A DNA stretch of 64,000 bases from Halalkalirubrum salinum (lineage in GTDB: Archaea > Halobacteriota > Halobacteria > Halobacteriales > Haloferacaceae). Under the pieces are notes generated by a model. That model searched no databases, had not been told where the DNA came from, and saw only the letters and a program-made list of their open reading frames with translations. Location: positions 1 to 64,000 of the forward strand of contig NZ_SRSG01000017.1 of assembly GCF_005543295.1 (NCBI RefSeq). The letters run 5' to 3'. Positions within the stretch are counted from its first letter, which is position 1. Every line of letters begins with the position of its first letter. Of this stretch, positions 4,839 to 58,376 are shown one piece after another. The position numbers and the translations under genes were made by a program.

Positions 4839-5033
4839 ATGACCGATCGATCGACACTCGCAATCGCGTGGGTCGCCGTCCTCACTGCCGCGCTGTTCGT
4901 CGTCGCCGCAGTCGGCGGAGCGACTGAACTCGTTGGTAGCGCCGAAGCGATCGCTGTCGCCGCGATCGTGCTCGTGTTTACACTTGGGGTCCTGAGGAAG
5001 GCTCGCGGCGTGCGGTCGACGCCATACTGGTGA
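4839..5033 (+). CDS. Small two-helix membrane protein (64 aa)
   Basis: A 64-residue protein with two hydrophobic segments (about residues 8-28 and 35-52) separated by a short acidic loop, ending in basic residues (RKARGVRSTPYW). It is probably an integral membrane protein of unknown role. The start at 4839 fits the divergent promoter gap; another ATG four bases upstream is out of frame. It stands alone and converges with the uracil-DNA glycosylase-like gene. Confidence 0.6.
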   Translation: MTDRSTLAIAWVAVLTAALFVVAAVGGATELVGSAEAIAVAAIVLVFTLGVLRKARGVRSTPYW

Positions 5034-5081
5034 GTCCGCCCACGGCAGCAACAGAGCGTTGCCAGTGGACCGCTGTCTCGG

Positions 5082-16488: not shown

Positions 16489-17406
16489 ATGGCACGTATG
16501 AATCCGTTAGAGCGGTACGCCCCGCTCGTTGACGACCCCGAGGCCTTTCGTGCAGCGTGTCAACGGCCGCTGCCGTCGGTTGTTCGTGTCAACACGATCA
16601 AGGCGACGGCCGATCGGGTGGCTGCGGCTTTTGATACCGAGGGCGTTGGGTACGAGCCGATCGAGTGGCACGACGGGCTGTTTGCGCTTGCCGAGCGCGG
16701 GCCGGGGACGACGTGGCCGTACTTTCACGGCTGGGTCCACGGCCAAGAGGAGGTGTCGGCGCTCCCAGCGGTGGTGCTCGATCCGGATCCGGGCGACCGC
16801 GTGTGGGATGCGTGTGCGGCCCCGGGAAGTAAGACCACGCAACTGTCGGCGCAGATGGGCGACCAGGGACTGGTCGTCGGGAACGACAGCAATCTCGGTC
16901 GGCTCTCGGCGCTGCGACACAACGCCGAGCGGCTGGGCGTGACCAACCTCGCGGTGACAAATCAGGACGCGCGAAACTTCTCGCTGAAGCCGTTCGACTT
17001 CGAGGCGTTCGACGCCGCGCTCGTCGACGTGCCCTGTTCGTGTGAGGGGACCTGTCGAAAGAACCCAACTGCACTGGAGGAGTGGACGATCGACCACGTC
17101 CGATCGGTCACCGGCGTCCAGAAGTCGATTCTCTCGCGGGCGATTCAGGCGACGAAGCCTGGCGGCACAGTGGTCTACTCGACGTGTACGTTCGCCCCAG
17201 AGGAGAACGAAGCCGTGGTCGATCACGCCCTCCAGACCGAGGACTGTCGGATCGTACCGTTCGATCTGCCGATCGACACCGTACCCGGTGTGACCGAGTG
17301 GGACGGAGCGACGTTCGATTCGGCCGTGACAGAGACTCACCGGATCTACCCCCACCTCAACGATACCGGCGGCTTCTACTGTGCAAAGCTGGAGGTGACC
17401 GCATGA
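16489..17406 (+). CDS. RsmB/NOP-type RNA (cytosine-5) methyltransferase
   Basis: The 305-aa protein has an N-terminal RNA-binding lead (ERYAPLVDD), then the SAM-binding motif WDACAAPGSKTTQ. Motif IV VDVPCSCEGTCRKNP and motif VI STCTFAPEEN carry the two cysteines used by RNA m5C methyltransferases. It modifies tRNA or rRNA. It lacks a C-terminal PUA domain, which appears to be encoded by the following gene. Its stop overlaps the ATG of the first 12-codon ORF (ATGA), within a triple repeat of ribosome-binding sites. Confidence 0.93.
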   Translation: MARMNPLERYAPLVDDPEAFRAACQRPLPSVVRVNTIKATADRVAAAFDTEGVGYEPIEWHDGLFALAERGPGTTWPYFHGWVHGQEEVSALPAVVLDPDPGDRVWDACAAPGSKTTQLSAQMGDQGLVVGNDSNLGRLSALRHNAERLGVTNLAVTNQDARNFSLKPFDFEAFDAALVDVPCSCEGTCRKNPTALEEWTIDHVRSVTGVQKSILSRAIQATKPGGTVVYSTCTFAPEENEAVVDHALQTEDCRIVPFDLPIDTVPGVTEWDGATFDSAVTETHRIYPHLNDTGGFYCAKLEVTA

Positions 17407-17475
17407 GAACCGATCGTGCGAGACTGGAGGTGACAGCATGAGAACCGATCGATCGAATCAGGAGGTAGCCACATG
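17391..17475 (+). repeat. Three Shine-Dalgarno-ATGA cassettes with 35-base period
   Basis: GGAGGT occurs at 17391, 17426 and 17461, each six bases before an ATGA (ATG at 17403, 17438 and 17473). The first two units are 25/26 identical over the shared core from GGAGGT to ACCGATCG; the third is diverged but keeps spacing and motifs. The unit includes the codons for the last residues of the methyltransferase (LEVTA), so the gene end itself has been duplicated. Confidence 0.85.
17403..17441 (+). CDS. 12-codon ORF 1 between coupled genes
   Basis: The ORF reads MRTDRARLEVTA, starts inside the methyltransferase stop (ATGA) and ends inside the ATG of the next mini-ORF. It has its own GGAGGT six bases upstream. 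Its last five residues repeat the methyltransferase C-terminus. It may be translated as part of termination-reinitiation coupling, or be a by-product of tandem duplication; a stable peptide is doubtful. Confidence 0.35.
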   Translation: MRTDRARLEVTA

Positions 17476-17476
17476 A
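17438..17476 (+). CDS. 12-codon ORF 2 between coupled genes
   Basis: The ORF reads MRTDRSNQEVAT, overlaps ORF 1 by ATGA and overlaps the ATG of the PUA-like gene by ATGA, again with GGAGGT six bases upstream. The first five residues equal those of ORF 1. It is the middle link in a chain of three -1 overlaps. Confidence 0.35.
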   Translation: MRTDRSNQEVAT

Positions 17477-56470: not shown

Positions 56471-57154
56471 TCACAGGAGATCGCTAATCGCCAGGCGAAT
56501 ACGCCGTTTTACACCGCCTGCGGCCTGTTGAAAACTGATGTGCCAGGGCGTTCGTTGCCCGATCACGCTCGTCCGGCCGGTCCGAATCGCCTCAAGAATC
56601 GCTTCCTCGGAACGATCGTCCACCCCGACTTCTGTAACCGCTTGCCCGACCATTTCGGAGATGTGGGCGTCGCTGCCGGCAGTCATGGGAAGACCATGTT
56701 CGATCGCAAACTGCTCGGCTTTGCGGTTCGCCAGTCCGGTCAACAGCCGTGAGTTGTACACTTCGATCGCGTCAGCGCTCGCCAACTGCCCGGTCGAAAT
56801 GTGTGGCGCGACGCCGTGGCGGGACTTTTGAAACGGGTGGGGAACGACCGCAATACCGCCTTGCTCGCGGATCCGATCGAGCGTTTCGTCGTAGGATAAT
56901 CCGGCGGGGACGCGCTCGGAGATCCCGAATGCGAGGACGTGACCCGCCGCGGAGGTGACTTCCATCCCGCGGATACCAACGAGCCCGTACTCCTCGGCGA
57001 GGTCAGCAGCAGCGAGGCTCGCGTCGATCTCGTCGTGATCAGTAACTGCGATCGCGTCAAGCCCGACAGCCTGTGCCTGCTCCAACAGCAGTTCGATCGG
57101 ATCCCGGCCGTCGTACGAGAGCGCGGAGTGAGTGTGGAGCTCGACGGTTAACAC
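56471..57154 (-). CDS. PHP-domain metal-dependent phosphoesterase
   Basis: The 227-aa protein begins (GTG) with ELHTHSALSYDG (PHP motif I), then DAIAVTDHDEID (motif II), GMEVTSAAGHVLAFG, AVVPHPF (motif III) and GSDAHI (motif IV). It would hydrolyse a phosphate ester with several metal ions; small-nucleotide or RNA substrates are known for relatives. The start is set at GTG 57154 because it aligns with motif I. Just upstream, a 24-base repeat encodes copies of the motif II segment. Confidence 0.87.
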   Translation of the reverse strand: MLTVELHTHSALSYDGRDPIELLLEQAQAVGLDAIAVTDHDEIDASLAAADLAEEYGLVGIRGMEVTSAAGHVLAFGISERVPAGLSYDETLDRIREQGGIAVVPHPFQKSRHGVAPHISTGQLASADAIEVYNSRLLTGLANRKAEQFAIEHGLPMTAGSDAHISEMVGQAVTEVGVDDRSEEAILEAIRTGRTSVIGQRTPWHISFQQAAGGVKRRIRLAISDLL

Positions 57155-57218
57155 AGCTCTCTGTAAGCGGGATGACCTCAAAAATCGCCCGATACGATTC
57201 GTCGTTGAGCGATCCCGC

Positions 57219-57327
57219 CAATCGCGTCGTGGTCTGTGATTGCAATCGCGTCGTGGTCTGTGATTGCAATCGCGTCGTGGTCTGTGATTGCAATCGCGTC
57301 GTGGTCTGTGATTGCAATCGCGTCGTG
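57219..57327 (-). repeat. 24-base tandem repeat, 4.5 copies, spelling a PHP motif
   Basis: Units start at 57219, 57243, 57267 and 57291, with a 13-base partial unit at 57315-57327; all copies are identical (24-mer split: CAATCGCGTCGTGG then TCTGTGATTG). In one minus-strand frame each unit encodes the eight residues AITDHDAI, the PHP motif II seen in the adjacent gene as AVTDHDEI. That frame opens directly after the stop of the 58-aa gene and closes before the PHP gene, so it is probably not translated as such. Confidence 0.9.
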
Positions 57328-57360
57328 AGAAATACTCTCGACCGAGTCAATTCGCGCCCT

Positions 57361-57537
57361 TCAAGCGCTACGGAGCGATGGTGCAACGATGAGCACAGTC
57401 ACGATCGCCGCAAGAATTACGCCAACACCGTACAGTTGGGTGAGGAGATCTGATTGTGTCATTTCGAGACCAATAACCACCGCACCAGCGATCGCAAGCA
57501 GGATGCCAACCGCACCCCAGATAGCGTTCTCGTTCAT
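57361..57537 (-). CDS. Small two-helix membrane protein (58 aa)
   Basis: The frame translates to MNENAIWGAVGILLAIAGAV, a hydrophilic stretch with LEMTQSDLLTQL, then a second helix (YGVGVILAAIVTVLIVAP) and RSA. It is probably a small membrane protein of unknown role. It is divergent from the CinA-like gene, with 71 bases for both promoters. It reads toward the repeat and the PHP gene, which may share its transcript. Confidence 0.65.
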   Translation of the reverse strand: MNENAIWGAVGILLAIAGAVVIGLEMTQSDLLTQLYGVGVILAAIVTVLIVAPSLRSA

Positions 57538-57608: not shown

Positions 57609-58316
57609 ATGCACGTGGCGATCGTGACGGTGGGAGACGAACTGCTCTCGGGTGACACGACGAACACGAACGCGACGTGGCTGTGTGCCCGCCTCGACGA
57701 GCGCGGGGTCATCGTCGAGCGCGTGACGACCGTTCCCGATCGGATCGAGGACATCTCTCGGGTTGTCAATGAGTACCGCGCGGACTACGATGCGGTGATC
57801 GTCACCGGTGGCGTCGGACCGACACACGACGACGTGACGATGGACGGCGTCGCCGCAGCGATCGGTCGAACAACAGCGCCCAACGAGGCGGCGCTGTCGT
57901 GGCTCACAGAACACGGCGGCTACAGCGCCGACGACCTTACCGAAGGGACCACAGATCTGCCCGCGGGCGCAGAGATGATCCCAAACGATGTAGGCGTCGC
58001 ACCGGGAGCGATCGTCGAAGACATCTACGTCCTACCGGGTGTCCCCGCGGAAATGAAAGCGATGTTCGAGCGAATAGAAGGTCACTTCGAGGGAAAACCA
58101 ACCTATTCAACGGTCGTCGCCATCGACGAGCCCGAAAGTACGCTCCTCGATCGGTTTACCGCGCTTCGCGAACAATTTCCAGTCGGCGTCGGAAGCTATC
58201 CGGGCGAGCACGTCCGGGTGAAACTCACCGGCGCAGATCCCGAAGTAGTCGAAGCGGCTGCCGCGTGGCTGGCGGAGCGATCGGACGTGCTCGAAGACGA
58301 ACCCACAGAAGAGTGA
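57609..58316 (+). CDS. CinA N-terminal/MoCF-type molybdopterin-binding protein
   Basis: The 235-aa protein starts MHVAIVTVGDELLSGDTTNT and has VIVTGGVGPTHDDVT, the MogA/MoaB/CinA ligand-binding loop, and YVLPGVPAEMKAMF. It lacks the C-terminal nicotinamide-nucleotide amidase domain of full-length CinA. Roles range from molybdenum cofactor chemistry to ADP-ribose pyrophosphatase; moaC lies 2.5 kb away. ATG at 57609 is clear. Confidence 0.88.
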   Translation: MHVAIVTVGDELLSGDTTNTNATWLCARLDERGVIVERVTTVPDRIEDISRVVNEYRADYDAVIVTGGVGPTHDDVTMDGVAAAIGRTTAPNEAALSWLTEHGGYSADDLTEGTTDLPAGAEMIPNDVGVAPGAIVEDIYVLPGVPAEMKAMFERIEGHFEGKPTYSTVVAIDEPESTLLDRFTALREQFPVGVGSYPGEHVRVKLTGADPEVVEAAAAWLAERSDVLEDEPTEE

Positions 58317-58376
58317 GACGATCGAGTAGCGTAATCAGCGGTACAAGACGATTCAGTGACGAAATCAGCGGTACAG
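58317..58376. repeat. 30-base tandem duplication at the end of the 37-aa gene
   Basis: Units 58317-58346 and 58347-58376 agree at about 24 of 30 positions, with the core AATCAGCGGTACA identical in both. The second unit contains the stop and last codons of the small gene at 58365; the first is a copy of that gene end immediately downstream of it. Confidence 0.6.

Follow-up and report, generated by a model that had tools for sequence, protein, structure and literature searches.

Structure of the array and its neighbours

A tandem array of 24-bp units lies in the gap between a small gene and an intact PHP-domain gene, all on the minus strand (Table 1). TRF detected 4.5 copies at a period of 24 with 100% matches, the copy number being that read from a draft assembly of 62 contigs, and the array was the strongest in the 64-kb window, which is the whole stretch of DNA that was analysed. 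The first-pass annotation had reported this repeat from the letters alone, and the TRF result confirms it as a real (DAIAITDH)n array when read on the minus strand. The unit is GACGCGATTGCAATCACAGACCAC, which translates as DAIAITDH, and the minus-strand frame reads ...SISH-DAIAITDH-DAIAITDH-DAIAITDH-DAIAITDH-DAI-GGIAQ.... With 4.5 copies of 24 bp, the array belongs among minisatellites, which have units of 10-100 bp in at least 2-4 head-to-tail copies.

Table 1. Features at the array locus (positions in the 64-kb window)
Feature	Position	Strand	Remarks
PHP-domain gene	56471..57154	-	PF02811 and PF13263; GTG start at 57154; intact; 227 aa
PHP motif DAIAVTDHDEI	57026..57058	-	Within the neighbouring PHP gene; 26/33 identical to the array
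Promoter-like block, 26 bp	57176..57201	-	Identical in the congener; between the array and the PHP gene
Minisatellite	57219..57327	-	Four 24-bp units plus 13 bp; all copies identical
Upstream flank, 33 bp	57328..57360	-	From the small-gene stop to the array; no significant PHP similarity
Small upstream gene, 58 aa, hydrophobic product	57361..57537	-	No Pfam match

A perfect 10-bp palindrome, GATTGCAATC, is present at every unit junction; its four occurrences all lie in the array, and none was found elsewhere in the 64-kb window. A CRISPR array was ruled out, as the units abut without unique spacers. A dispersed repeat or mobile element was also ruled out, as the region 57150-57400 matched one place in the whole genome, and a search of this genome revealed no further copies of the array with its flanks. 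No published report of the array was found at the title and abstract level.

The array has the same orientation as the PHP gene. The single distance of 150 bases previously given to that gene is better replaced by two values, 65 bp to the GTG start and about 160 bp to the PHP motif inside the gene. The promoter-like block between the array and the gene has a TATA-like, T-rich box about 27 nt upstream of the PHP start and, judged by its sequence, may be the promoter of the PHP gene. The array leaves the block undisturbed, the sequence being the same as in the congener.

The congener and Natronocalculus have the small gene in this position too. Counterparts of similar size also were seen by eye immediately before the PHP gene in several other haloarchaea, and the small gene is a conserved, uncharacterised neighbour of the PHP gene.

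Other tandem duplications were observed in the window. Two copies of a 30-bp unit are present at 58316-58375, one of which covers the final codons of a 37-aa ORF on the minus strand together with its stop (MIPLEAPMGPLPTEATAAAILLVGIVSVVAWLAYLYR). The congener carries this duplication (5009-5068 of its stretch) with the same consensus, and so, in contrast to the 24-bp array, it is a conserved and older feature. At 17391-17476, a 35-bp unit in about 2.4 copies extends across the end of an apparent RNA methyltransferase gene (LEVTA-stop), and the unit also spans an ATGA overlapping the gene and the ribosome-binding-like sequence GGAGGTG. The gap between the RNA methyltransferase-like gene and the next one thus holds a tandem duplication of the former's end.

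Similarity of the repeat unit to the PHP motif

Comparison of the array with the motif of the neighbouring PHP gene gave 22 identical bases of 27, and 26 of 33 over the longer segment. The first-pass annotation had counted 21 of 27; its close match to DAIAVTDHDEI stands with the count corrected. Its observation that the differences fall mostly at third codon positions also was upheld (five of seven over 33 bases). Outside the array, no site of the 64-kb window matched it better than the motif; the runner-up among unrelated sites reached 23/33, and two of 4000 random 24-mers from the window, tandemised likewise, attained 26/33 against the PHP gene (p ~5e-4). At the protein level, the array scored 49 against the PHP gene, whereas 400 null trials reached at most 37; a profile of 74 orthologues gave it 31.7 bits, and the highest of 5889 null trials gave 22.1.

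The unit was then sought across 392 genomes of the order at up to three mismatches, and 22 matches were detected outside its own genome. All 22 were PHP genes, matched on the same strand, in frame and at the TDH motif, while the reversed control pattern gave zero matches in the same genomes. Likewise, a 27-base search of 171 family genomes gave seven outside matches, and all seven were orthologues of the neighbouring PHP gene. Because every near match was a PHP gene, the reversed control gave none and the scores lay beyond their nulls, a common ancestry of the repeat unit and the PHP TDH motif is well supported, as had been proposed. The strength of this support comes from the multi-genome test, since similarity to the neighbour taken alone gave only the window-level p-value above.

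Comparison with related genomes

The species is sampled by one genome and its congeners by one, listed as Halophilic archaeon SHRA6; after it, the closest PHP orthologue is that of Natronocalculus amylovorans. In both relatives the small gene is followed by the PHP gene without an array. The PHP protein is 95% identical in amino acids to its counterpart in the congener. In the flank alignment, the small-gene stop and the 26-bp promoter-like block are 159 bp apart here but 28 bp apart in the congener; the array together with about 22 other bases is therefore an insertion of about 131 bp in this lineage. The 33-bp upstream flank mostly belongs to this insertion, and the downstream flank aligned with the native intergenic DNA of the congener.

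Besides this array, no tandem PHP motif was found in the 171 family genomes, and none was found in viral contigs. Relatives that carried the repeat but lacked PHP similarity would, according to the first-pass annotation, have spoken against a PHP origin; no searched relative has the repeat. All units share one sequence, which differs from the PHP gene by about 20%, so amplification came later than capture.

Origin of the array

The array is probably a lineage-specific minisatellite whose seed was a copied piece, about 24-33 bp long, of the PHP TDH motif, most likely from the lineage's own gene. The earlier proposal that a PHP-gene fragment was amplified into a minisatellite is supported by the near matches, 22 of 22 of which are PHP genes. 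The motif at 57026-57058 is the likely source and slippage seed. It holds a 9-bp direct repeat, GACGCGATC/GACGAGATC, whose copies are identical at eight of nine positions and lie exactly 24 bp apart. This spacing equals the period of the array and offers a ready-made slippage substrate, which accounts for the unit length of 24 bp.

Template switching during replication, or else illegitimate recombination, may have placed the motif fragment upstream over a short distance, and slippage primed by the fragment's own direct repeat (DAI...DEI, 24 bp apart) would then have multiplied it. The palindrome GATTGCAATC at the unit junctions could promote polymerase pausing and possibly aided amplification. 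We infer these copying and slippage steps from established models of slippage and short-homology recombination (PMC9879509, PMC2884548); the junctions at the array carry no diagnostic trace of the copying mechanism. Completion of a quasi-palindrome by templated correction was considered and rejected, as two changes fit no single correction event.

An exact DAIAITDHDAI coding sequence was found only in the array, and the 392 genomes of the order contained no exact donor. The closing AI of DAIAITDHDAI is the start of the next unit, so the copied motif need have been only about 24 bases long. The closest PHP motifs differ from the unit at two to three of 24 bases and that of the neighbouring gene at five of 24. 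As the unit is identical to no known PHP motif, with two to three mismatches at best, the PHP gene of another haloarchaeon is a possible donor. The array and its own PHP gene share a GCA codon at position 4, which is rare (three of 79 orthologues) and points weakly to this lineage's own PHP gene, the most likely donor. The predominance of third-position differences fits a coding source followed by synonymous drift of the gene after copying; of 228 third positions compared between the own gene and that of the congener, 64 differ.

The first-pass annotation had also raised the possibility of a second PHP gene remnant. It is unlikely that the array descends from a second PHP gene in tandem, or from a copy of part of the PHP 5' end, that decayed except for a motif which was then amplified. 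The motif does have the orientation of the PHP gene, and a weak resemblance to the PHP N-terminus was seen in the 12 in-frame codons that precede the array (IDSVE vs. VLSVE, p=0.046 uncorrected). However, no significant similarity to the PHP 5' end was found in the DNA of the upstream flank (p 0.26-0.97), nor any to the PHP gene in the downstream flank (p=0.90), which corresponds to native intergenic DNA of the congener. The PHP similarity thus stops at the unit edges, whereas in a pseudogene homology would extend into the flanks. Moreover, the congener and Natronocalculus, the two nearest relatives checked, have a single PHP gene at this place and no second one. A partial, decayed duplication is conceivable, but nothing in the evidence requires one, and capture of a short motif followed by slippage is preferred.

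Function, translation and chance

The array is very probably a neutral mutational by-product and probably has no function. As it sits farther upstream than the conserved TATA-like promoter block, a function need not be invoked. Neutrality is the most economical reading of the sequence, with a regulatory role possible. It is improbable that the array is a functional upstream element, in which binding sites iterated at 24-bp spacing, with GATTGCAATC at each junction, would make copy number a dial for expression of the PHP gene or the small gene. Its position upstream of the promoter-like block and the four palindromes, all confined to the array, are in keeping with such an element, as is a transcript fold more stable than that of shuffled sequences (z=-2.77), although repeats alone inflate z. 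Against it, no copy was found elsewhere in the window or in the relatives searched, the promoter block of the congener is intact without an array, and 24 bp is a non-integral number of helical turns. A hairpin or RNA element was rejected, as the same fold value is expected of a palindromic repeat. It is quite improbable that the captured motif array now serves as a putative copy-number-variable regulatory element (an iterated palindromic site) of the PHP gene; if it did, the PHP gene would be tuned by repeats made of its own coding sequence.

An unrelated minisatellite whose unit spells the PHP motif by chance is strongly disfavoured and very improbable. About 1/2000 tandemised 24-mers of like composition give 26/33 against the PHP gene, and GACGCGAT-type words are common in haloarchaea, but the near matches in the 392 genomes were in-frame PHP motifs in 22 of 22 cases and no other site, and the protein score was far outside the null.

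The first-pass annotation had the repeat frame starting right after the stop of the small gene; the two do share a frame, but the array starts 33 bp past the stop. Translation of the array, e.g., by readthrough of the small gene's TGA into a PHP-motif repeat tail, is extremely unlikely, for although the shared frame is open through the array to a stop, such sharing is expected by chance in one of three cases, no ATG, GTG or TTG start lies in frame past the stop, and the small gene of the congener ends in TAA without an array.

Relation to known repeats and significance

Prokaryotic satellites have units of 10-200 nt, and many correspond to coding segments (survey, PMC6749651). The array resembles prokaryotic minisatellites in its 24-bp unit and more than four perfect head-to-tail copies, but it did not expand within a gene: its unit copies a motif of the neighbouring gene and lies about 160 bp from it, in a non-coding gap. 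The perfect tandem repeats of archaeal Borgs are recently formed and include an intergenic array in one element that is absent from a close relative (PMC9879509). Like the array, they are recent, have perfect units and show partial repeats at their edges; unlike it, they are A-enriched, abundant and extrachromosomal, whereas a single array on a haloarchaeal contig was found here. Bacterial variable segments that arise by short-homology illegitimate recombination or replication slippage (PMC2884548) also are small insertion differences between relatives with short direct repeats as substrate, but here the source fragment is identifiable as a gene motif.

The array is therefore ordinary in kind as a minisatellite, and its source is unusually traceable. 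The seeds of minisatellites can rarely be traced; in this case one can identify the motif that served as source, the empty site of the congener and a built-in direct repeat of unit length. The array leaves the picture of PHP proteins and of haloarchaeal regulation unchanged. It could serve as a strain marker, and it provides a clean, small example of a conserved coding motif seeding a repeat in non-coding DNA.
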